From Symbiodinium sp. CCMP2592 (Eukaryota > Sar > Dinophyceae > Suessiales > Symbiodiniaceae), in the NCBI GenBank assembly GCA_905221615.1, contig CAJNDT010004713.1:400001-464000 (forward strand): a stretch of 64,000 nucleotides of DNA, in the 5' to 3' direction. The position numbers and the translations under genes are program-made. Positions 1 through 15,604 of this stretch are shown one piece after another. A model generated the notes under the pieces. The model made no database searches, was not told the DNA's origin, and saw nothing but the letters and a program-made list of their open reading frames with translations. Each line of letters opens with the position of its first letter. The stretch's first letter is position 1.

Positions 1-1
1 G

Positions 2-2044
2 GTCACCTTTGATGCTTCCCTGCAGTCGACAGACCTAACGGTTCCGCATCAAGAGTGTCACTGGCAGGTCACCAGCACTGGGAAGATTGACTTCCTAGAA
101 CTCTACGGTGGATCTCCCCGTATGAGTCACAAGGCTGCCCTGTCAGGTCTGCGAGTAGGTCAGCCAGTCGACTTGCGTAGTGGTCTAGATCTTGAGCAAC
201 CGCAAGGTCGCTCCAATCTTCTTAGGATCATCAAGGAACAAGAACCTACTATTATTGTTATGTCACCCGATCACTCTCAGTGGTCTAGCTGGTACTCACA
301 GTGGAAGAAAGGCTCTGCCAAGAGACTTTCTGTTTTAAAATTCTGTGAATCGGTCGCAGACCACCAAATGAAGCTCGGACGTTACTTTGTTCTTGAGAAC
401 CCATACTACAGCAGGCTCTGGTCTTCACCAGAAGCAAAACGCCTGTTTTCCAACCGCAAGATCAGCTATGAGGTCTGTAACCTACAAGCCTATGGCATGA
501 AAGATCCAAAAGGATACTATGAATCGAAATCCTCGATTTTCATGCACAACCTGCCACCGCAGGTTCTAACTCCTCTCCAGAGGCATTCTGCCAAAACGAA
601 ATCTCCAACATCTCCACCAGGAGACGAAAAGGGTATTCAAGGCTACGGTCTTAAAACGAAACTCGCACAAGTGTATCCTTATGAATTCTGTGAGACCTTT
701 GCCTCGTGTTTGGCAAGATTCCTGAAGAGAGATACATATGCATCTCATCTTTCTTTAGTCACAGACATACTAGGATACTCTGGAGATGAATGCCTCCAGG
801 GACTTTCGGAACTTCTTGACCAAGAGTATTCACTTTTGACAGCAAATCCTCTCAAGGATTCCAAACTCCTGCAAGATCCGAAAATCAGATCACTTGTTGC
901 TAGAGTAAATTCCTTATCGAGTAAAACTGAATTACCATTGCATCATTCCAAACCATCACCGTCCCTTGATGCCTTGGTGTCAGACATTACTCGCCTTAGA
1001 TCAAGACTCTTACCAGGGTCTGGTTTCGAACAGTGTACTCTATACAGAGGTACATTTGGAACAGTCAAAGCACTCACCAGTGTAACTGATGGCGTTCTTG
1101 TCTTCTGGAACAAGAAGAAGCCCAATTCGACTATGACGTGTTGCTTGCCGCACCAGGTTTCCTGGAATAAAGTACACCCATCAACCTTCTCGGGGGTGCT
1201 CTTCCAGATGACAGGCGGCAAGACTTCACCGTCCGTGCGAACACCGCCGGATGTTATCATGTCGGACGAAGAGGTTTCGCCGTCAGACCCGTCAGAACCC
1301 ATGAGCACTAATCGCTCACGGATCACATCTGACGATGTCTCTATGCCGGAACCAGATCAGCCGATGCCTCCCGGCACGCCGCCGTCGCGTCCTCCTCCTC
1401 CCATACCTCCACCGCGACTACCGGCCGTTTCCTCCGATGAGCCCGTGGCTCCTGCTCGGGCTAAGCCTCGCGTGCATCCGCCTCCTCGCGTTCCGTCTCC
1501 TCGGCGTCTGGGGGGTGATGTGTCGCCAAGGTCTTCATCGGAAAGGAAAGTTTCGCCGCACAAACAGAAATCACCTTCACAGGTGCCGACACCAAAACCT
1601 AAACCGAAGGCACATCCACAGGGACCCATTCTTCCGTTACAACAAGATGAAGAAGATTCTGAAGAAGAACTGGTCCCGGACGACCCCGGACAACCGTCCG
1701 CTCCTCCTCACACCTCTGGTTCACCAGAACCGGAGAGCGATGCCGAGTCAGAAGACACAAGGTATTACTCTGATGAGGAAGGTGACCTGGTCGTAGATGA
1801 GAAGGACTGGATCCTTCTCACAGAAGAACAGAAACTGTGCAGTAACACAGGTTCTTTCTCCATGCCTCGGTACATGCATGGCGGACCCGTAGACATCAGA
1901 GAGGTAACATCAAGAGTGAGGTCAGACCGAACACGGTATAAACCCACCAAAAGGTTCCGATCTGACATCCGTGAAGAGTATGATCTTCTCACGGAAGAGG
2001 ACAAGGCCTTATCCCTAAGTTCCCCCAGGAACTCAGCAAATTGA
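2..2044 (+). CDS. Retroelement ORF1: methyltransferase-like block plus proline-rich linker (5' partial)
   Basis: The frame is open from base 2 to the stop at 2042-2044, so it enters from the left; the ATG at 122 is internal. Numbering from that ATG, residues 1-150 resemble the cytosine-methyltransferase-like block found in many dinoflagellate copia polyproteins: FLELYGG just before the ATG, then GLRVGQPVDLRSG, MSPDHSQWSSW and FVLENPYYSRLW. In an active C5 methyltransferase the third motif would hold a Pro-Cys catalytic pair; here it reads Asp-His, so methyl transfer is unlikely. ENP could correspond to the ENV motif. Residues 380-480 are a proline-rich spacer (PPPPIPPPR), followed by a Glu/Asp-rich stretch and a basic tail. 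The region lies where copia polyproteins have the integrase-to-RT linker. The methyltransferase link is inference from motif order. Confidence 0.75.
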   Translation, partial: VTFDASLQSTDLTVPHQECHWQVTSTGKIDFLELYGGSPRMSHKAALSGLRVGQPVDLRSGLDLEQPQGRSNLLRIIKEQEPTIIVMSPDHSQWSSWYSQWKKGSAKRLSVLKFCESVADHQMKLGRYFVLENPYYSRLWSSPEAKRLFSNRKISYEVCNLQAYGMKDPKGYYESKSSIFMHNLPPQVLTPLQRHSAKTKSPTSPPGDEKGIQGYGLKTKLAQVYPYEFCETFASCLARFLKRDTYASHLSLVTDILGYSGDECLQGLSELLDQEYSLLTANPLKDSKLLQDPKIRSLVARVNSLSSKTELPLHHSKPSPSLDALVSDITRLRSRLLPGSGFEQCTLYRGTFGTVKALTSVTDGVLVFWNKKKPNSTMTCCLPHQVSWNKVHPSTFSGVLFQMTGGKTSPSVRTPPDVIMSDEEVSPSDPSEPMSTNRSRITSDDVSMPEPDQPMPPGTPPSRPPPPIPPPRLPAVSSDEPVAPARAKPRVHPPPRVPSPRRLGGDVSPRSSSERKVSPHKQKSPSQVPTPKPKPKAHPQGPILPLQQDEEDSEEELVPDDPGQPSAPPHTSGSPEPESDAESEDTRYYSDEEGDLVVDEKDWILLTEEQKLCSNTGSFSMPRYMHGGPVDIREVTSRVRSDRTRYKPTKRFRSDIREEYDLLTEEDKALSLSSPRNSAN
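1984..2044 (+). other. ORF1/ORF2 overlap, candidate -1 frameshift zone
   Basis: ORF1 (ending at TGA 2042-2044) and the upstream-open frame of ORF2 (after a stop at 1981-1983) overlap by about 60 bases, with ORF2 in the -1 frame. ORF2 has no plausible start of its own before its conserved sequence. I searched the overlap for a canonical X XXY YYZ heptamer in the ORF1 frame and found none; a run of five C (around 2021-2025) is the only slippery-looking stretch. A one-base deletion in this copy would give the same picture. Confidence 0.55.
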
Positions 2045-3951
2045 CCCAGAAGGCACAACGGAAGGAGGCAACCGCCAAGGAAAAGCGTGAGATGAAGAAA
2101 CAGTTTGATGAAGCGAAAGCAGCAGAATATCAGAGCTGGCTAGACAATGATGTCTTTGAGCTCGTCGATACACGGAAACTCGGAAACATCCGAAATTATG
2201 TCACTGGTCGATGGGTCCTGACTCTAAAAAGAGATAAGGACGGAAACTTCCTTAAGTGCAAGGCCCGATGGGTCCTAAGAGGTTTCCAGGATCGACAAAA
2301 GGACATACAGCAAACTGATAGTCCTGCTGCGAGTCGCCCAGGTTTCCGCTTGGCGATTCAACTAGCAGCTAACAAGCTGTGGAGACTGACACACATCGAC
2401 CTAAAGACTGCTTTTCTGCAGGGTGAAGCCTATGATGAGTCGAGAGACATAATCTGTCAGATTCCTCCTGAAGCAGGTTATCCTCCCTACATTGCAGCGA
2501 GGATGAAGAAACCCGCTTATGGACTTAACGATGCACCTCGAAGATGGTGGAACATCGTTGATAAGGCACTCCTGTCTTACGGCCTGGTGCCAACCCGTGC
2601 GGATCGCTGTACATATGTTCTGTATGGTAAGAAGTCTGCAACAGCAGATGCTGAGCTCAAGAAGTCTCAGCCAAAGACCATGGAATCAGCGATTGACTAT
2701 CTCCTAGATCCCATAGCAGGCAACAATGCCAAGGGTAGACAGGTACATGGAGTAGTCTGTTTACATGTAGATGACCTGTGCATGGCCGGTGATGACACCT
2801 TTCGTAAGGCCGTGATTGAATCGATCAAAAAGGAGTTTGCAGTCGGTTCTGAAGACACGAACGATATTATGTTTGTAGGACAGAGATTAGTCTGGAAGGA
2901 TGCTACAGCATCAGTGCCAGCACATATCTCAGTAAATCAGAACCTAGCTGTTGAAGCTCTAGAGGAAATTGTTTTTGATAAGAAGCTCAACAATGAGCAA
3001 CAATGCACACCACAGCAGCACACTGCTTACAGAAGTGTTTTAGGACAGATCAACTGGCTACAAAGCCGGACTCAAGCTCACATCTGTTATCGCTTCAGTC
3101 GGTGTGCGAGTAAGGCTGCCAAGCCTACTATCGGTGATATTCGAGAATTGAACAAGCTTGTTAGGATTTTGAAGTCTACTGAAGTAGAACTGCGTTTTTG
3201 GCCGCTGAAAGGAAATCTCAGAATCCTCGGTTACCCTGATGCTTCCTACAGGAACAATGATGACAAATCATCTCAGAGAGCACATGTTATTTTCCTTGCT
3301 GAAGATCGAAATCCAAAGCTAAAGGGAATGAAACAATCAGCAGCAGCTGCTTCTTCCAAGAAGAACGATTTCTCTGAATCCTCTATTAAGGAAACATCCT
3401 CGAGAGGTAGCCTGGTGGATTATGAGTCTCACAAGATTACGACAACCACAATGTCCACAACAGTGGCAGAGCTTAACGCACTGATGCGTTGCTTTGGTAC
3501 TTGCCTGTTCCTCAAGGGACTTTGGGCAGATCTCTCATCAGAGACCGTACCCATACATATCAGAACAGATGCGAACAATCTTGTGACAACAGCAGGCACG
3601 ACACACCTTCCAGAGCAGAAGGAAACTCACCACCTCATTCAGATGCTTCGTAAGGAATCCAACTCTGGATCTTTAGATGACCTAGCTCATGTAAGCTCGA
3701 AGTACTGCCTAGCTGATGCATTAACAAAGCACTCGGCGCAACCTGATGAGCTTATCAAGGCTCTGGAAACAGGGAATTTACCAGAAACAGACATTCATCC
3801 ACCCTTCCGTGAACTTCTTCAACATAAAGCTTTCACTGTTCGGTGGATCATAGACAATCTCAAGAATGCCGCCACAGCGGTAGCCTTCCTTGGAATTGAT
3901 ATCTCAACAGAGATTTACCGATTATTTTACTGCCAAGGAATATGGTGGTAG
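2041..3951 (+). CDS. Retroelement ORF2: copia-type reverse transcriptase and RNase H
   Basis: This ORF encodes the enzymes that copy element RNA into DNA and remove the RNA strand. The frame is open from 1984. The first codon at 2041 is TTG and the first ATG is 2092, inside the conserved part, so ORF2 is probably read by a -1 shift from ORF1 rather than from its own start. Numbering from 2041, RT motifs are DLKTAFLQGE (first catalytic Asp at 120), PAYGLNDAPRRWW (about 158-170) and LHVDDLCMAG (Asp 244 and 245, with His where copia usually has Tyr). RNase H residues are all present: Asp400 (GYPDASY), Glu477 (TVAELNAL), Asp510 (RTDANNL) and Asp559 (LADALTKH). Length and order fit the copia RVT_2 plus RNase H module. 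The last ten bases overlap the first possible start of ORF3. Confidence 0.95.
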   Translation: MTQKAQRKEATAKEKREMKKQFDEAKAAEYQSWLDNDVFELVDTRKLGNIRNYVTGRWVLTLKRDKDGNFLKCKARWVLRGFQDRQKDIQQTDSPAASRPGFRLAIQLAANKLWRLTHIDLKTAFLQGEAYDESRDIICQIPPEAGYPPYIAARMKKPAYGLNDAPRRWWNIVDKALLSYGLVPTRADRCTYVLYGKKSATADAELKKSQPKTMESAIDYLLDPIAGNNAKGRQVHGVVCLHVDDLCMAGDDTFRKAVIESIKKEFAVGSEDTNDIMFVGQRLVWKDATASVPAHISVNQNLAVEALEEIVFDKKLNNEQQCTPQQHTAYRSVLGQINWLQSRTQAHICYRFSRCASKAAKPTIGDIRELNKLVRILKSTEVELRFWPLKGNLRILGYPDASYRNNDDKSSQRAHVIFLAEDRNPKLKGMKQSAAAASSKKNDFSESSIKETSSRGSLVDYESHKITTTTMSTTVAELNALMRCFGTCLFLKGLWADLSSETVPIHIRTDANNLVTTAGTTHLPEQKETHHLIQMLRKESNSGSLDDLAHVSSKYCLADALTKHSAQPDELIKALETGNLPETDIHPPFRELLQHKAFTVRWIIDNLKNAATAVAFLGIDISTEIYRLFYCQGIWW

Positions 3952-6900
3952 TCTCGTTTGCTGGTAGCACAACCATGTGCTGGATTTTCTATTTAGACTG
4001 TTTTCCGTCTAAAAGAAAATTTGTGTCTGCGAGCTGCGTTTTCATTAAGATCGGACATGTTCATGAGAATTATATGTTCTGTATCATCCGCAGCCGCTTT
4101 CAGCTTCGAGCCTCACAGCAATCAGCCTTTCGGGCTAACCAAGCGTTCCTGATCCTGTTTGGTCATTGTGCCGTAATGAGCACACGATCAAACTTCCGTA
4201 GCCGTGATGGACACGCCCTACCCAGGGCAGTGCAGGCGTACCATGAGCGACATCCACACATGGATAGCTCATACCCCGAGTCTCGTCGGGAAGCATCACG
4301 TCGAAACACCGAACACGGTGGACACCGATTTCACAAACGTGAGAAAAATCACGAGCCTCAATTCATCATCATGGATCACCAACAGGTGTTCAATCCGCAT
4401 CCAAGAGATCTTGCTCAATTGATCTCACGATATGGCCATGCGAGTAGAGCAAGGCTCACTCTAAACTCCAGACATGGAGTCAGGCTCTACGAAGGAGTCC
4501 TTCAAGGACCATGGGACAACAGTCCCCTTGTATACTGGGATAACAACGTCGGTAATCACGCTCGTGATCCACACCAGTTCTGTACGATGCTTGCACATCA
4601 CCTTCAGACAGGCCTCCCACCGGAGGTAGAACAATGTGTGAGCCTTGATGGATCCGGAGAATATGACTATTCCTCCTCAGTGCCAAAACTGGCAGATGTA
4701 ACAGGTCTCTCACCAGAGATGTGCTTCCACATTCTTTCCAAGACCAACAGAGTCGGAAGGTGGTTGGCACACTCAACAAGACACCTTCAGAACCAGCGCC
4801 CAGATCTCTTTGCTGGCCAACACAATTATCTTCTGGACATGTTCAAGTTGGCCGATGCAGAGCTCGCACAGTATACACCACAAGAGATCGCGCTTGGTGT
4901 CCTCCTCAACACTAAGTCTAGGTTTGTGGTCACCATGGTTTATAACAAAGATGGCAAGGCCGAAACCACAGATGCCGCCGTTAACATCCCACCGGATGCA
5001 AATGTGTTGACCATGAGCAAAATTTTCCTTTCGGCAGTGGGAGGACACGGTTCACGACGAACTCTACCAAGAGCTGAAGAACCAGATCCTGAAGAAGAGA
5101 GACCAAGGTCACACATGACCATCTCAGACTTCATGGCAACGGGGAGCAATCCTGTGCAGTCCCATGCACAGCGTCTCTCCACTAACGCGCCAAGGCCCGT
5201 CGGCATGGAGGATTTTGTTCGACAGAACAACCCTTGTTACATCATGCATGCCACGGACCTACAGGCATTATCCTCAATCCTGAGGCACGGTCTGGTACCA
5301 TCAAACCTCCTAGCGCAGGTGGTTACAGCACCAGATTTCCAAGCTCTTGTGAATGAAAACAGTCGTTCCAACAGGGACACTGTTCAGTTCTCAACGCTAA
5401 ACCTGGCGAATCCCAATCCGACCATGTTGCGTGCCAACAAGGCACTGCTTCTGGTATTCGATGCAAATAACGTAGTGAACGAAGTCACAAACCTGTGGCA
5501 GTCGCAAGTAGGGATGTTTGCTACACCAGATGTAGTGCATGCCCGTACTCTTAGCGCCGTATTCGCACCCTCTGAAACACTCTGGGTATCATCGCAATAC
5601 GATGAGCTCAAGAGCATCGGACCATGGTGGGCAGACCATTGCTCCGAACAGATGCCGTCAGCGACTTACGAGTCGAAGAAATGGTGCGCAAATTACGGCC
5701 GAGAAATCGAATCGGCACTTCGAAAAGTGGCAAGGCGAAATCTGCCACCAGAGCCTCCCAAGGCTAGATCTTCTCACAAGAAGTCTTTTTCTCTGCCAAA
5801 GACAGAGGCTGACACAGCTCCAAACCTGGAGCAAACCGCTTCTGCAGGTGAGGTACCTCCGAAAACGGAGACTACTGCAAAGGAGATCCATCCGAGATCC
5901 AAGCTCGCCCGGCAGGCCGAGGCTGACAAGGATCCGGACAGTCTTATGGGACAGCTCTGGAACTCCGACGGCACCAGAAGCGCCACCGAAGTTCTTAAGA
6001 TAACGACAGGTCACAAACCTCCAGAACCTGTTCAGGATACTTCCGCCAACGTAGTTCCTCCCAAGGAAGAATCTTCTGGAACAGAGACGGAACCTGAGGA
6101 ACCGGATCCTAACCAGGATCGTGACGAAGAATCAGACGATGAGTCGGCATCAAGCGAAAAGAGCTCAAAATCTTCGTCATCCTCAGAACTCCGAGTTGAT
6201 GTTAATCCGTCTCACAAGACGAACTCTGCACCTGCAGCGTCGGAGGAGAAGAAAGAATCTCCCACGGAAGAGATCACAGAGAAACTTAAGGAGGTCAAAC
6301 TTGACCAACCAAAGCCTGAAGCAGAATATGTTCAGAGTTCAGACGAAGAGCCACAGAAACCAAAATCTCCTAAAAAGGAGAAGGAGAAATTCCTAGTTCT
6401 CTTCGATCCTGAAACAGAAAGTTATTATCGAGTCAACAGAAGCAAGCTCAACCTCGAATACGAGGAACCTGCTGATGAGGAAGATCTCGTAAGAGAACAT
6501 GAGCGCATCAGCGCTCGACTTCGAGAAAATCGCAAGCACCGAATCTCGAAGTCATCGTCTAACCCGGCTATGCAACAGGAAATGAAAGAGAGAATCTGGG
6601 TTAGTCGATGGAATCGAAAAATCCGAAGTCCACTCATGATCAAGGATTCTGAGGCTCCTGACGAAGAGGAGTGGGACAGACCCAGAGAGTCGGCATCTTC
6701 CTCCTCTGCACCTCCTACCAAGGAGAGATTTGTAGGAGTACGCAGGACAGCCATGAGTCTTAACCAAAGGATACGGCTGATGACACGACCAGATAATCCT
6801 CTCTGCGATCTTTGCAACCAGCCTACAGGCTATTTTTGCTATTCCTGTGGTACGATTGTATGTGCAGACTGTCGACTTACCCCACAGGGTAAACAACAGA

Positions 6901-9338
6901 TGTGCGAGTGCGTCTTGCCAATCGATTGCCTCGAAACCTCTAAAGTGTCAGCAGGAATGACCTCAGAAGAGCGTCAGGTTTTATACGAGGCCATCCTCAC
7001 ACCTGAGGACGTAGATTTGGCAGTCCAGAAAATCAACATGTATTGTGACCACGCAAGGAATTTGTTCATGAGAGCCCATCCAGGCGTTGATCCATGTAGC
7101 TTTGATGATATTAGGAATAATCCTCCTAATACTTACACCAGCTCCACAGAGGCTCCAACCCTGGAGGAATACAAGAGCATTAACAAGAGTCACATCAATA
7201 TCAAGGACTCCAGAACAAGCCACCCGGCTTCTTTTCTCTCTCTTACTGGCTACGAAGACAAACTGGTGCTCGACGCACATTACGAGATAGTTCGTAATAG
7301 GATGGCCGGTGTTAACGAAAAGAGAGAATACATAGAGGGCTCAAACCCAGACAGCGTATCACTAAGCCTAGTGGTATGCAACTGGGGAAATATGGATCGA
7401 GCGCCGGTGCCAGCAGGGAATCCCAAAAAGAAACTCAAACCTGAGAAGGGATTCGATTACCACCCTCTTATTGACATGTGCTTCAACAATTCAGCACATA
7501 TTACCCTCGTACTCGAGGCAGGAGCACTTGCGTCAAAGTATTCGATCGCAACCATGCGACAACATGAATACAGAGGGATGCTAATCCATTCTCCTCCCAA
7601 GGAGCCTGAGGCACCCTCAATGTATATTGGAGTCAAGGGTGACCCAACAACAGACATCTCTCTCGTCCACCACTTTTACCGTCACCGAACAATGAAGCCT
7701 AAGGCTGGTGGTCCCAAGAAGCGACTGTGGGCATGCCACGGTGCGGTATGCCGCCTCACCTTTGGGTACCACAGTACCATCAAGGAGGCAAAAGAATGGG
7801 TCCACCCATATTCCGGCCAGAGGATGACGAGAGATGAGTTCATGAAGATTATCGGATATGACCCTCTCAAGGGTAAAAATCCTGACAAGGATGGACCCAC
7901 TGATGGCTCTTACCTCTCACCAGAGGCGTGTCTGACAATGTCGGACCTCGACCCTGCGCCGGTTCTCTGTGAATGGAACGGCCATGTCGAGGGTGATGAG
8001 CCACCAGAGGAAGACTTTGAGTCATACGCAGAGATCTTCTCACAAGAAGCATCAAACGATCTTGACGAGATGTGGTGTACAAAAGGGCCTTACAAGGTCA
8101 TCACCATCGCGATCGTCCATTTCAACTCATACATGACTCATAAGGAAGAACAGAGGCGCGAACTGGTGAACGCGTTCCTCAACGAGGTTCTCCCTTTCAA
8201 ACCGGATGTAATTGCGGGGGATCTCAATAATATTGCGTCGAGGCTCACCTTAAAAGGTGGAGACGTTCACCCGCGAAACGGTTTGTTTTCTCTATACCTG
8301 GAGAAGAAACTTGCAGCATTCAACAGAATAGCAGGAAGGCACTCACAAGTGCGACACCTCTGCTTGAACAACTCTGACCAGCACAGACTGGCACGTGCAG
8401 ATCGTCTACCGCCGGACCCGGCGAAGAAAGTTGCTGACCTCGACTGTATCAACAGTTATATCCTTGACTGGAGTAAAACGCCGCACACGGCGTCACCTAG
8501 TCCAAGAGATGCTACACCTGCCGCCGAAAGAACATACTGGGAACGAGTCTCAGATATGTGGCAGGACATGAACAGAAACAGGGATATCGATATCCGTCTG
8601 TTTGTCTCAGTCAAGCAGTACTATTCAACTTTTTCTAACCTTGACCTGTGGTTGAGTCCCTCTGACAAAGATTGGCACAGCCCTTTGGGCTTCACGATAC
8701 AACCAATCCTTACAAAAGGGAAACACAACCGGTCAGATGCCCAGGTTCAGAAGATCGCTAACAAGCGACAGGCTTACAAGCAGCGTAATGCTGAATACTG
8801 GGATTACAAAGACTCATTTGTGTATTCATCCGGCAACAGCTGGTACGACAGACAGCAACCACAAGGTAGCTATCACAGATATGGAAGATTCTGGGAAAGG
8901 CCACAGCCTGAACGTCCCAGCGAGCCTGAAGGCTCTCCTCCAAGAAGGAGCCAGGCATCATCGTCCTCTTCACAACAAGATCTACCAAGATCGAGATCCA
9001 GACCTCAAAGAACCAATATTGTTGACAAGCTCAACATGTCTTTGGAAGAGCTGGATGGACTAGAAGAAGAACCGTCACCAACAAAAAGTGACATCGAAGA
9101 ACACGAAAGAGAAACATCAAACTTGATGTCTGCTCAGAGAGATGAAGAGGAACAAGAGGACGAATCCTCCAGCCGGAGGAGAAGAAGGAAGGCATCACGC
9201 CCACCGTCTGCTCCGAGCGGCAAGGCACTCAGAACAGCTGCCACAGCAGCGGGGTTGTCGGGCTGGTTCGGACACCGTAACCACGGTGGAGCGACTTCTC
9301 CGTCTTCAGCATCGCGTGGAATGTGTTTCTGCTGCTAA
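3942..9338 (+). CDS. Retroelement ORF3: KptA-like region, zinc module and EEP nuclease-like domain
   Basis: This 1798-codon frame lies downstream of RNase H, where some copia elements carry an envelope-like gene, but I see no signal peptide or membrane anchor in its body. Residues 290-545 resemble Tpt1/KptA RNA 2'-phosphotransferases: a helical part, SAVGGHGSR, then YIMHATDLQALSSILRHGL (about 433-451), TVQFS and LLLVFDANNVV. The catalytic Arg of the first motif looks lost. A charged linker follows. Residues 955-990 form a zinc module with the pattern CxxC-x7-CxxC-x4-CxxC-x10-CxC. Residues 1140-1590 fit the endonuclease/exonuclease/phosphatase fold: Asn1147 (CNWGN), Glu1192 (LVLEAG), His1393 (VHFNS), Asp1427 and Asn1429 (GDLNN), Asp1577-His1579 (DWHSPLGF), with a long insert between Glu and His. 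The C-terminal 200 residues are Ser/Arg/Glu-rich. The first 78 codons overlap a noncoding-looking signal, so Met79 at 4176 may be the true start. Domain calls are motif reading, not searches. Confidence 0.85.
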   Translation: MVVVSFAGSTTMCWIFYLDCFPSKRKFVSASCVFIKIGHVHENYMFCIIRSRFQLRASQQSAFRANQAFLILFGHCAVMSTRSNFRSRDGHALPRAVQAYHERHPHMDSSYPESRREASRRNTEHGGHRFHKREKNHEPQFIIMDHQQVFNPHPRDLAQLISRYGHASRARLTLNSRHGVRLYEGVLQGPWDNSPLVYWDNNVGNHARDPHQFCTMLAHHLQTGLPPEVEQCVSLDGSGEYDYSSSVPKLADVTGLSPEMCFHILSKTNRVGRWLAHSTRHLQNQRPDLFAGQHNYLLDMFKLADAELAQYTPQEIALGVLLNTKSRFVVTMVYNKDGKAETTDAAVNIPPDANVLTMSKIFLSAVGGHGSRRTLPRAEEPDPEEERPRSHMTISDFMATGSNPVQSHAQRLSTNAPRPVGMEDFVRQNNPCYIMHATDLQALSSILRHGLVPSNLLAQVVTAPDFQALVNENSRSNRDTVQFSTLNLANPNPTMLRANKALLLVFDANNVVNEVTNLWQSQVGMFATPDVVHARTLSAVFAPSETLWVSSQYDELKSIGPWWADHCSEQMPSATYESKKWCANYGREIESALRKVARRNLPPEPPKARSSHKKSFSLPKTEADTAPNLEQTASAGEVPPKTETTAKEIHPRSKLARQAEADKDPDSLMGQLWNSDGTRSATEVLKITTGHKPPEPVQDTSANVVPPKEESSGTETEPEEPDPNQDRDEESDDESASSEKSSKSSSSSELRVDVNPSHKTNSAPAASEEKKESPTEEITEKLKEVKLDQPKPEAEYVQSSDEEPQKPKSPKKEKEKFLVLFDPETESYYRVNRSKLNLEYEEPADEEDLVREHERISARLRENRKHRISKSSSNPAMQQEMKERIWVSRWNRKIRSPLMIKDSEAPDEEEWDRPRESASSSSAPPTKERFVGVRRTAMSLNQRIRLMTRPDNPLCDLCNQPTGYFCYSCGTIVCADCRLTPQGKQQMCECVLPIDCLETSKVSAGMTSEERQVLYEAILTPEDVDLAVQKINMYCDHARNLFMRAHPGVDPCSFDDIRNNPPNTYTSSTEAPTLEEYKSINKSHINIKDSRTSHPASFLSLTGYEDKLVLDAHYEIVRNRMAGVNEKREYIEGSNPDSVSLSLVVCNWGNMDRAPVPAGNPKKKLKPEKGFDYHPLIDMCFNNSAHITLVLEAGALASKYSIATMRQHEYRGMLIHSPPKEPEAPSMYIGVKGDPTTDISLVHHFYRHRTMKPKAGGPKKRLWACHGAVCRLTFGYHSTIKEAKEWVHPYSGQRMTRDEFMKIIGYDPLKGKNPDKDGPTDGSYLSPEACLTMSDLDPAPVLCEWNGHVEGDEPPEEDFESYAEIFSQEASNDLDEMWCTKGPYKVITIAIVHFNSYMTHKEEQRRELVNAFLNEVLPFKPDVIAGDLNNIASRLTLKGGDVHPRNGLFSLYLEKKLAAFNRIAGRHSQVRHLCLNNSDQHRLARADRLPPDPAKKVADLDCINSYILDWSKTPHTASPSPRDATPAAERTYWERVSDMWQDMNRNRDIDIRLFVSVKQYYSTFSNLDLWLSPSDKDWHSPLGFTIQPILTKGKHNRSDAQVQKIANKRQAYKQRNAEYWDYKDSFVYSSGNSWYDRQQPQGSYHRYGRFWERPQPERPSEPEGSPPRRSQASSSSSQQDLPRSRSRPQRTNIVDKLNMSLEELDGLEEEPSPTKSDIEEHERETSNLMSAQRDEEEQEDESSSRRRRRKASRPPSAPSGKALRTAATAAGLSGWFGHRNHGGATSPSSASRGMCFCC
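4010..4029 (+). promoter_or_regulatory. Internal copy of the 3' purine-rich signal (central PPT or subgenomic signal)
   Basis: TAAAAGAAAATTTGTGTCTG here matches 19 of 20 bases of the sequence at 11299-11318 near the 3' LTR, and both are preceded by TTCCG. The core AAAAGAAAA has the look of a polypurine tract that primes plus-strand DNA. An internal second tract is known in Ty1 and lentiviruses. It sits just after the ORF2 stop and before Met79 of ORF3, so an alternative role is a start or processing signal for a separate ORF3/ORF4 transcript. Confidence 0.5.
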
Positions 9339-9340
9339 TG
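9336..9340 (+). promoter_or_regulatory. TAATG stop-start coupling of ORF3 and ORF4
   Basis: The ORF3 stop TAA (9336-9338) shares its last A with the ATG of ORF4 (9338-9340). Overlapping stop-start pentamers of this form are used for termination-reinitiation in some RNA viruses and LINE-type elements. It is the best explanation of how ORF4 is translated and decides its start: the frame is also open upstream from a GTG at 9323, but no ATG lies between. Confidence 0.6.
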
Positions 9341-11020
9341 GGCTTACACTGGATGTGGAAACAGATTACCAGGGCTCCCATCAGATGTATGGACCGCCAA
9401 CAATCAAATGCAAAAGCAGCAGCGAAACGACCACCACCATTTCTCGAACCCGAGAATGAACCACAGACGCGTGAACCTTTAGGACCCAACAGGGTCAATT
9501 CTGGAGAAACAACGGATTTGCGACCTGTGTGGCACACTTCCCGAAGCGAAGTCTACCATCTTTCAGACAGCTGTTACCAGCTCAAGCAAGCAAAAGATGT
9601 TTCAAGGAAGGTGCTGTGTAAAACCTGCCTCCAGGCAGTACAAGTTGCGGAGATTCGCAGGAACGATCCTTTTCAAAGAGGTGATACACGATCACGTGGC
9701 ACCGAAAGGGACATTGAACGGTTTCAAACCTATGACGATGCAAGTACTACTCCTCATATGAGGCAATTATTCAGTGATGCATTGCATTCACAAATGGCCG
9801 AAGAAGCCATGCAGATTACCTATACATCAATCCCTAAGGGATCCTCGGCAAGAGCCAGAGGTACATCTGCACTCGCAAGTGCCTCATCGTCGTCAGTGCC
9901 CAAGGCAATGCCACCAGTGCCTAACAAGGCAAACATGTCACCTCCACCTAAGTCTCCTCCGCCAAAGGCGAAAGGAACAGTACCTTCAGATCCTCCGAGA
10001 CCAAAAGGTCCTACCAGAAGAGGAGGTCAAAATCGGCGCATTCAACGAAAAGCAGCTAGAGAAGCCCATAACAGTGGACTCTGCAACCATGCAGACGCTG
10101 CACTTGGCGAAGCCAATCAAGGCCAGGCCATTAACACTATGTGCCGAAACATGGCAGTAAGACACGTCAGCTCTATCGATGCAACGGTAGAAGCAGCCGA
10201 GCAGTTTACGCAACGCGTGCAACAGCATGTAGAAACATATGATGAAGAGGAACCGTGGAGCACGGAGTTTCTACCAGTCGTGGAAGTCCTATTCAGGAAC
10301 TTGAGCAGCGACGAAACAACTGTCATACATGACAATCATACGGCAACTATGCCTATTCAGAAATATCTCGACCTCCTCAGAATCGCACAATCATTGCGAA
10401 ACTCTATCCAGAGAGACAAGGAGGAAAGAAAGGATCATCTTGACACCATCCAAGATACTCTATCCAGAGTGGAAATCCTTCTAACAGCACTGAAGGACTC
10501 AAAAACAGTCTTCAATCAATTGGTCCATTCCTCACTAGAGATAGAGCGAAGACATAAAAACCTCAAAAATGTCCTTGAGACACTTTTTGACGACCAAAGC
10601 TCTGAGGAAGACCAGTCAGAATCTGACCATGAAGAAGTCCTAACTCCTTCTGCAGCACAGTACTGGAACAGCCTTCATGCCCACGCCTTATCTCCCTCAG
10701 GAGATGAAAGTGAAAGATCATGGGCGTCCTCAGACGGACAGCTTGAAAGAAGAAGGGCCGAACGGGCAAAGGCTAAGCAGCCACAACCGGCTAAAGCCGA
10801 GGCAACTCCAATCAGCTCACAAGCTGCACCAAAGGCCGAGCCAAAGGCGACTACATCCAACCATGGATATGAAACTGCAGACGCCGCCTTCACCAGGGCT
10901 GAGAACAGATTACTCGGAATCTTTTCAAGTTCCGAAGAAGATCACTCAGACCCGGATGAACCACATCCGAACGTCTATGCTCGAGCCTATGATCCAAACC
11001 TGGATCCAAATCTGAGATAA
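9338..11020 (+). CDS. Retroelement ORF4: basic zinc-knuckle and coiled-coil protein of unknown function
   Basis: The protein is 560 residues from the ATG that overlaps the ORF3 stop. I do not recognise a family. Residues 60-100 hold a possible zinc site, WHTSRSEVYHLSDSC followed 15 residues later by CKTC (His, His, Cys, Cys, Cys), a layout seen in other dinoflagellate retroelement proteins. Residues 160-240 are proline- and lysine-rich (PPPKSPPPKAKG) and run into a strongly basic patch (RRGGQNRRIQRKAAR), which suggests nucleic-acid binding. Residues 345-420 read as a coiled coil with regular Leu/Ile spacing. The C-terminal third is acidic and disordered with repeated SSEED-type clusters. A nucleocapsid-like or RNA-chaperone role is a guess. 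The last ten codons are also present in the inverted copy at 35641-35674. Confidence 0.8.
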   Translation: MGLHWMWKQITRAPIRCMDRQQSNAKAAAKRPPPFLEPENEPQTREPLGPNRVNSGETTDLRPVWHTSRSEVYHLSDSCYQLKQAKDVSRKVLCKTCLQAVQVAEIRRNDPFQRGDTRSRGTERDIERFQTYDDASTTPHMRQLFSDALHSQMAEEAMQITYTSIPKGSSARARGTSALASASSSSVPKAMPPVPNKANMSPPPKSPPPKAKGTVPSDPPRPKGPTRRGGQNRRIQRKAAREAHNSGLCNHADAALGEANQGQAINTMCRNMAVRHVSSIDATVEAAEQFTQRVQQHVETYDEEEPWSTEFLPVVEVLFRNLSSDETTVIHDNHTATMPIQKYLDLLRIAQSLRNSIQRDKEERKDHLDTIQDTLSRVEILLTALKDSKTVFNQLVHSSLEIERRHKNLKNVLETLFDDQSSEEDQSESDHEEVLTPSAAQYWNSLHAHALSPSGDESERSWASSDGQLERRRAERAKAKQPQPAKAEATPISSQAAPKAEPKATTSNHGYETADAAFTRAENRLLGIFSSSEEDHSDPDEPHPNVYARAYDPNLDPNLR

Positions 11021-11312
11021 GAAAATTCTCAGAGTTTCACAACAGTGACTCACAAAGCTCTAACAAGAGCACAATGAAGGGCTGCATAATTCGGTAGAAG
11101 AACATTCCCAGACCTGATCTTGTACAGATGATCTCTCTGACCAACATGCATGAGTGTGTGCAAAAGGAGTGACCTCAACAGTGTACTTCAGTGCTATACC
11201 TAGCATAAACAATATGCTGTTTTTATCATGAGTCCAAACTCCGCAACTGTGACAGTGGGCATAATAGTATATGTGTGAATGTGCGGCCATGCTTCCGGTA
11301 AAAGAAAATTAG
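11021..11312 (+). other. Retroelement 3' untranslated region with polypurine tract
   Basis: This stretch lies between the ORF4 stop and the estimated LTR start and is conserved in the inverted copy at 35350-35640, with scattered substitutions and small indels. It ends in AAAAGAAAA (about 11300-11308), a good polypurine tract just before a TG. No coding frame of interest is present. Confidence 0.6.
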
Positions 11313-11318
11313 TGTCTG
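11299..11318 (+). promoter_or_regulatory. 3' polypurine-tract-like signal
   Basis: TAAAAGAAAATTAGTGTCTG spans the presumed plus-strand primer site and the first bases of the LTR. It is matched at 4010-4029 (19/20) and exactly in the inverted copy (35344-35363). Confidence 0.55.
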
Positions 11319-11570
11319 TTTGTTTGCGTAAACCTCTAAAGGGGTAGCTCTAACAGGTACCTACAGCAATGGCTGCATGCTCATACATATACATTCCGCT
11401 GCCCATTGGCTCACAGTGGTTTTACCATATTGAGACAAGACAAGCTCTCCTTGCGTAGCAAGACAAAACAACTACTGTCCGTGTGCAGGGCGCTGCCCTT
11501 TGATCCTTAGGGAATAAACTGGTCATACACCTCCTAACAAGGAGCATTTCCTTGTGGGTGTATCGGCTCA
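11313..11570 (+). repeat. 3' LTR of copy 1 (start approximate)
   Basis: The right end is fixed by comparison: sequence shared with the inverted copy stops after TATCGGC plus one variable base plus CA at 11570. The left end is estimated as the first TG after the polypurine tract, which gives about 258 bases, a plausible size for a copia LTR. It contains an AATAAA-like stretch (GGGAATAAACTGG, about 11510-11522). The start could lie further left, because no 5' LTR is in the window to compare with. Confidence 0.6.
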
Positions 11571-15450: not shown

Positions 15451-15492
15451 CAAAAGGGCCGGTAAGTCCTGTTCCTGGAACGCTAAACGCCA

Positions 15493-15604
15493 GCCCTGAA
15501 CCTTGAACCCTAAGCCCTGAACCTTAAACCCTAAGCCCTGAACCTCAAACCCTAAGCCCTGAACCCTGAACCCTAAGCCCTGAACCCTGAACCCTAAACC
15601 CTAC
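15493..15604 (+). repeat. CCCTAAA/CCCTGAA-type tract
   Basis: Sixteen or so heptamer-like units, mixing CCCTGAA, CCCTAAG and CCCTAAA. Confidence 0.85.

Follow-up and report, generated by a model that had tools for sequence, protein, structure and literature searches.

ORF3, the subject of this analysis of a 64,000-nucleotide stretch of Symbiodinium sp. CCMP2592 DNA (the window), lies inside a Copia-type LTR retrotransposon, between its two LTRs, and is linked to pol. The protein resembles the RNA 2'-phosphotransferase Tpt1/KptA over one region and, partially, the endonuclease/exonuclease/phosphatase (EEP) superfamily over another, and one comparison between copies reveals purifying selection. 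The account that we favor, with about as much doubt as confidence, is that ORF3 is an accessory polyprotein of the element, made up of Tpt1/KptA-like, B-box and EEP-like parts, that processes RNA ends and so aids the element. We infer the catalytic activity, the RNA substrate and the life-cycle role of ORF3 from sequence. The features on which the argument draws are collected in Table 1.

Table 1. Features of the element and of ORF3, in window coordinates
Feature	Position	Strand	Basis or remark
LTR retrotransposon, in-window part	1..11570	+	LTR pair, TG...CA ends
gag-pol frame, downstream part after the integrase-like region	122..2044	+	frame break separates it from the RT frame
Reverse transcriptase (RT) frame	2041..3951	+	RVT_2 covers residues 36-195 (about 2146-2625)
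ORF3, 1798 codons, between pol and 3' LTR	3942..9338	+	open reading frame
Tpt1/KptA-like region, residues ~270-560	4749..5621	+	R280 H281, N-T-K-S-R327-F, GGHGS 367-371, H436-A-T, R478
Best-supported part of that region, NAD/ART-type lobe, residues about 430-531	5229..5534	+	hhalign aligned block
B-box-type zinc finger, residues 951-979	6792..6878	+	Pfam
Proposed EEP-like region, residues 1131-1599, with five motif words	7332..8738	+	only IV-V block statistically supported
Motif IV-V block, supported part of the EEP-like region, residues 1379-1465 (H1393, D1427, N1429)	8076..8336	+	hhalign, tiling
Frame break in ORF3	9285..9340	+	~60 nt of siblings L002, L005 and L006 absent
ORF4, C-terminal part of the ORF3 frame in siblings	9323..11020	+	sibling comparison
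3' LTR	11321..11570	+	matches 5' LTR

The element that holds ORF3 is 15,856 bp long (15.86 kb; contig C4712:395715-411570). It starts 4,286 bp upstream of the window, which therefore does not include the 5' LTR, gag or the integrase-like region (locus L031). The LTRs are direct repeats of 250 bp that are 100% identical (L031 5315-5564 and window 11321-11570) and end in TG...CA; each is bordered on its outer side by nine C, which would fit a short target duplication within a C run, without amounting to proof of one. From 5' to 3' the element contains gag-like frames, the integrase-like region, RT, ORF3 and the 3' LTR. The reverse transcriptase is of the RVT_2 type (PF07727, E = 2.2e-18, over the Pfam cut-off). 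Upstream of it, the integrase-like region was recognized as an rve match in a cropped 367-aa fragment only (E = 0.0081; 16.8 bits against a cut-off of 32.6; profile positions 9-102 of 102), and the 1288-aa frame scanned against Pfam returned no family, rve included. No Pfam match to RNase H was found in window 3001-3948; RNase H presumably belongs to the 2041..3951 frame, to which we assign it by its motifs. A putative primer-binding-like sequence, apparently similar to the 3' end of initiator tRNA, lies just 3' of the 5' LTR. ORF4 matches no Pfam family above the family's own cut-off. The sequence-only reading of this DNA had described an additional ORF, at 3942..9338, in a Copia-type element, and our analysis bears this out: the frame is open throughout, the RVT_2 match is clear, and ORF3 lies between the two LTRs and is linked to RT in other copies. 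We rejected the idea that the element is a LINE, given its LTRs and integrase-like region.

The copy in the window is not intact. Because about 60 nt are missing near 9290, ORF3 ends early and the remainder is read as ORF4. Its gag-pol is also split into several frames (2041-2044; L031 5577-10000) despite the identical LTRs. The element is a recent insertion; the window copy could have been broken already when it inserted or could owe its breaks to an assembly error, and both are possible. Well outside the element, window 15453-15600 is an array whose 21-bp units are variants of CCCTGAACC(T/C)TAAACCCTAAG; it has a telomere-like look.

Intact gag-pol and ORF3 frames occur elsewhere in the genome, where many siblings have a single open frame of 2391-2409 codons over the ORF3 region and many have a single 2658-codon frame over RT. 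A search of the 1.1-Gb assembly with the 468 residues of the EEP-like region scored at least 91 copies among 970 candidates, all of them 99-100% identical, and all 91 scored copies are stop-free over that region. A relative, P0006, used as query yielded at least 63 further places among 2,826 candidates (61 of the 63 stop-free). The two lists do not overlap, so the genome holds at least 154 copies of the EEP-like region. At least one additional subfamily of the element, with 63-67% identity to P0006, was seen at G000:C1336:890052-892088, C4898:153620-155671, C100:181175-183223 and other places. RT and the EEP-like region form at least 30 pairs in which both lie on the same strand of a contig, no more than 12 kb apart (91 and 69 places compared), and the spacing is 5285-5314 nt in 28 of the 30 pairs found. 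Gene models of other Symbiodinium assemblies likewise join RT to an ORF3-type ORF (P0004, with PF07727). The closest protein relatives are from Symbiodinium, and none were found in viral contigs; a further protein search brought up four proteins, none of them new to the set. That ORF3 might be a neighboring host gene was rejected because it sits between identical LTRs and recurs at a fixed distance from RT.

The EEP-like region is under purifying selection in the comparison with L035, the most diverged comparable copy: dN/dS is 0.15 over 570 codons at a dS of 0.17, the two proteins being 94.7% identical. Against five closer copies, dN/dS was 0.42, 0.36, 0.36, 0.55 and 0.84, but these are weak estimates, as dS does not exceed 0.04. 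The broken copy L032, with a likeness of about 70%, did not enter the dN/dS comparison. Among 30 copies compared, 9 of the 17 distinct changes are nonsynonymous, against the 78% expected for random changes.

The better supported of the two enzyme resemblances is one that the sequence-only reading did not list. Residues ~270-560 (window 4749-5621) resemble, in their sequence, Tpt1/KptA, the NAD-dependent RNA 2'-phosphotransferase. Searched with 24,736 Pfam models, all four cropped fragments, whose rows are mutually related, matched PF01885 with a best E value of 1.5e-4; the window fragment had E = 0.0019 and, with 18.7 bits against 26, lies below the Pfam cut-off. Two other families listed for the cropped fragments matched two of the four, with E values no better than 0.028. 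Uncropped, ORF3 did not match PF01885 at E ≤ 1, so the crop counts as chosen after the fact. For hhalign, the template was built from PF01885 proteins of bacterial genomes and the query from ORF3 residues 120-620 with three relatives. Ten of the 13 template rows were kept, L153, L163 and L161 having been dropped (two empty, one in the wrong frame), and the partial match L165 was unused. Against these 10 KptA proteins the score was 49.0 (prob 89.0, P = 2.3e-6), which none of 200 shuffles reached (best 24.1; reversed sequence 17.4); the initial 13-row profile had given prob 62 and P = 7.6e-5, again with 0 of 200 shuffles as good. Residues 400-560 alone matched the NAD lobe of KptA with prob 93.0 and P = 3.4e-7. 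The winged-helix RNA lobe (N-lobe) of KptA taken alone was equaled by 22 of 100 shuffles, and its best alignment places R-H and N-x-K-x-R-F in register. We also ran a tiling scan, comparing 11 overlapping 300-residue stretches of ORF3, together with ORF1, ORF2 and ORF4, each singly with the KptA and EEP profiles. The KptA profile scored 34.6 at residues 301-600, 22.8 and 20.3 in the neighboring stretches and at most 15.7 in the rest.

An Arg-His-Arg-Arg tetrad is described for Tpt1 in the available excerpts of PMC6333775, and we placed it in ORF3 through the bacterial KptA rows, not through CthTpt1. Its residues, R280, H281, R327 and R478, are invariant in all four rows, two of which are window-like; the lysine of N-x-K-x-R-F adjoining R327 is Q in P0002. 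An ordered motif pattern written post hoc fits two of four ORF3 rows, six of 10 KptAs and 0 of 20,000 shuffles, and we did not count it as evidence. PDB sequence searches found no Tpt1. An AlphaFold model of residues 270-560 from four sequences is of low confidence (pLDDT 37.5), and the absence of Tpt1 among the matches listed in fold searches with it counts neither way. Downstream of this region, the B-box scored 26.4 bits against a cut-off of 24.1 in a 113-aa fragment and 22.8 bits, below the cut-off, in whole ORF3.

The product of ORF3 could also be a counter-defense or host-modifying protein. Its Tpt1/KptA-like part would then ADP-ribosylate or dephosphorylate RNA or protein of the host, a role suggested for certain viral ADP-ribosyltransferases. 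Such a role would be in keeping with the part that ART-superfamily domains play in virus-host conflicts and with the KptA domains of a few eukaryotic viruses, both described in passages of PMC9503650. The residues kept in ORF3, however, are those for recognition of the RNA 2'-phosphate, going by the excerpts of PMC6333775, and there is no known host target; we consider this role quite unlikely. Alternatively, ORF3 could be env-like or structural, acting in assembly, at a membrane or in the particle, with its enzyme-like regions decayed. Sense additional ORFs usually lie where ORF3 does, between pol and the 3' LTR, and some of them are called env-like in the sections of PMC7264820 that we draw on, and hydrophobic stretches occur at the N terminus of ORF3 and at the start of ORF4. 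Yet the hydropathy is modest (best 19-residue means of 1.37 and 0.69), and both the invariance of the tetrad and the dN/dS of 0.15 in the EEP-like region argue against decay, which makes a purely structural ORF3 more doubtful still.

The second resemblance is the one from which this analysis started. The sequence-only reading had named five motif words of the EEP fold, and all are present in the order given: CNWGN (residues 1146-1150), LVLEAG (1189-1194), VHFNS (1392-1396), GDLNN (1426-1430) and DWHSPL (1577-1582). Scored with small motif matrices, GDLNN reaches 15.5 bits, a score that none of the 400 column shuffles attained. Motifs I and II, with the metal-binding N and E, and motif VII are not above chance, since 242, 306 and 285 of 400 shuffles, respectively, do as well. 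The best-scoring site coincides with the word proposed for motif II and not with those for motifs I and VII, and the C-terminal motif of ORF3 reads D-W-H-S-P, not S-D-H-x-P.

At the level of profiles, an EEP hit spanning all five motifs did not materialize. HMMER comparisons of whole and cropped sequences with Pfam, NCBIfam and PHROGs gave no EEP match, whole-length ORF3 did not match PF03372 at E ≤ 1, PDB sequence searches found no EEP, and a home-made EEP HMM run with the filters off left ORF3 below the inclusion threshold. As a positive control in the same genome, PF03372 matched over its cut-off at at least 150 places among 4,163 candidates, and ORF3 of the window was not among the matches listed. 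Many of these EEP loci (L122-L151) lie inside long open frames that resemble LINE proteins. The hhalign comparison set a profile of 17 nonredundant EEPs (16 from the same genome and one ExoIII) against a profile built from four rows of the ORF3 region. It scored 34.7 (prob 27.6, P = 6.5e-4), with 0 of 200 query column shuffles as good (best 25.6) and 13.0 for the reversed sequence; a trimmed EEP template raised the score to 36.0 (prob 38.3), again with none of 200 template shuffles as good (best 21.6). The signal is located in the motif IV-V segment of about 85 residues (prob 66.8-76.6, P = 5.3e-5 to 2.1e-5), and the N-terminal half gave no clear signal in the untrimmed comparison. With the trimmed template, residues 1132-1207 align best to EEP motif II, where they would be expected to, and 7 of 100 shuffles are as good. 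In the tiling scan, the EEP profile scored highest in the two stretches that cover residues 1351-1500 (33.8 and 33.5), followed by 20.2 in ORF1 and at most 16.3 elsewhere. In a leave-one-out comparison the 17 known EEPs score 104-237 and ORF3 scores 36, which puts it far outside the EEP range.

We therefore retain only part of the EEP claim. The motif IV-V block stands, none of 200 hhalign shuffles having matched it; the words for motifs I, II and VII are present and score no better than chance. The resemblance is partial: ORF3 appears very divergent from known EEPs and specifically similar to them over motifs IV-V only. Even so, it seems rather probable to us that ORF3 holds a true EEP-type domain. 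The structural comparison suggested in the sequence-only reading came out neutral, neither supporting nor refuting the fold. AlphaFold with six sequences gave a low-confidence model of residues 1078-1627 (mean pLDDT 30.8), and the best Foldseek match had E = 0.36; the absence of EEP among the matches listed counts neither way.

It is also conceivable, if improbable, that the EEP likeness is due to chance or is very local, with residues 1131-1600 adopting another fold that has a GD-x-N loop and with only the Tpt1/KptA-like region and the B-box being real. The silence of the HMMER libraries, the scores of motifs I, II and VII, no better than shuffles, and the lack of signal in the N-terminal half would all agree with this. 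They have to be set against the hhalign result, which survived shuffling on the query and on the template side, the specificity of the IV-V block in the tiling scan and the placement of residues 1132-1207 on motif II in the expected order (with 7 of 100 shuffles as good). The poor model also hints at a strand-helix-strand pattern around the block.

If the EEP-like region is a nuclease, it might nick target DNA and thereby open a second, LINE-like integration route, as the sequence-only reading had imagined in proposing that the element combines two integration strategies. A 12-member LINE-like subset of EEPs does score higher in hhalign (32.4) than a five-member ExoIII/host-like subset (27.1), and Symbiodinium LINEs carry PF03372 according to the accessible text of PMC5890265. 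The difference in score is small, however, and the subsets are unequal in size. The element has complete, identical LTRs and an integrase-like region, which would already account for integration. The notion of two strategies thus gained no support, the Tpt1/KptA-like neighbor points to RNA handling, and we rejected target nicking, for which there is no evidence, as highly improbable.

The reading of ORF3 as an RNA-end-processing accessory polyprotein draws on the pairing of its two enzyme-like regions, since an RNA 2'-phosphotransferase-like region beside an EEP-like one points to activity on RNA ends. According to passages of PMC9503650 and PMC6333775, KptA removes the 2'-phosphates that cleavage or ligation leaves on RNA, and ANGEL2, a member of the EEP superfamily, hydrolyzes RNA 2',3'-cyclic phosphates, as stated in an excerpt of PMC9525292. 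In our model, ORF3 would occupy the place that env has in retroviruses, between pol and the 3' LTR. Its protein might, for instance, strip cleaved element RNA or the primer tRNA of 2'-phosphates or of cyclic phosphates, or it might instead cut or trim RNA. Such processing of RNA ends could help reverse transcription or shield the element RNA from host RNases. Integration would proceed by the element's own integrase, and the EEP-like part would not be needed for it. The Tpt1/KptA-like and EEP-like regions may act jointly. More speculatively, and with little confidence, one can picture an RNA-end-healing kit in which a Tpt1/KptA-type and an EEP-type enzyme repair or mature the cleaved genomic RNA or the primer tRNA ahead of reverse transcription, answering a host defense based on RNases. 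If both domains are active, this retrotransposon family would devote about half of its 16 kb to RNA-end chemistry, not to copying or integration, and would connect retrotransposition in dinoflagellates with RNA repair and with NAD-dependent chemistry. Since the family is abundant and recently inserted, its expression and activity are directly testable.

LTR retrotransposons that carry an extra ORF are a known kind of element, and the RNA-processing-like content of ORF3 is a variant of that kind. Orchid Ty3/Gypsy elements reportedly carry an acquired m6A RNA demethylase domain. They are likewise LTR elements with an acquired enzyme domain that acts on RNA, but superfamily, host, enzyme and chemistry all differ from those of the Symbiodinium element. 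In passages of the open-licence full-text literature, no mention was found of Tpt1/KptA in any retroelement or retrotransposon. Precedents for enzyme capture exist in Symbiodinium itself, where, in the consulted sections of PMC5890265, LINEs and DIRS carry DNMT and Copia elements lack it; that capture thus concerns LINE/DIRS. An EEP domain in LTR-type reverse-transcribing elements also has a precedent in the Kuafuorterviruses, although Exo_endo_phos is present only sporadically there, as far as the excerpted text of PMC11673190 goes. Compared with Tpt1/KptA proteins (PF01885), ORF3 has collinear motifs, the Arg-His-Arg-Arg tetrad and a profile match over the ART lobe in common with them, but it falls below the Pfam cut-off, has an insert of ~20 residues before the third motif and is part of a retrotransposon polyprotein. 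With the EEP superfamily (PF03372, which includes LINE endonucleases, ExoIII/APE1 and CCR4/ANGEL) it has in common the motif IV-V block and the order of the five motif words; it is nevertheless far more divergent than the 17 EEPs compared, lacks a family-level match and has a long insert between motifs III and IV. A close parallel in architecture is with plant LTR retrotransposons that carry sense, env-like aORFs, as described in passages of PMC7264820. ORF3 is like these in place, orientation and retention in many copies, and it differs from them in its very large size, which in siblings is about 2400 codons, and in resembling RNA-processing enzymes.
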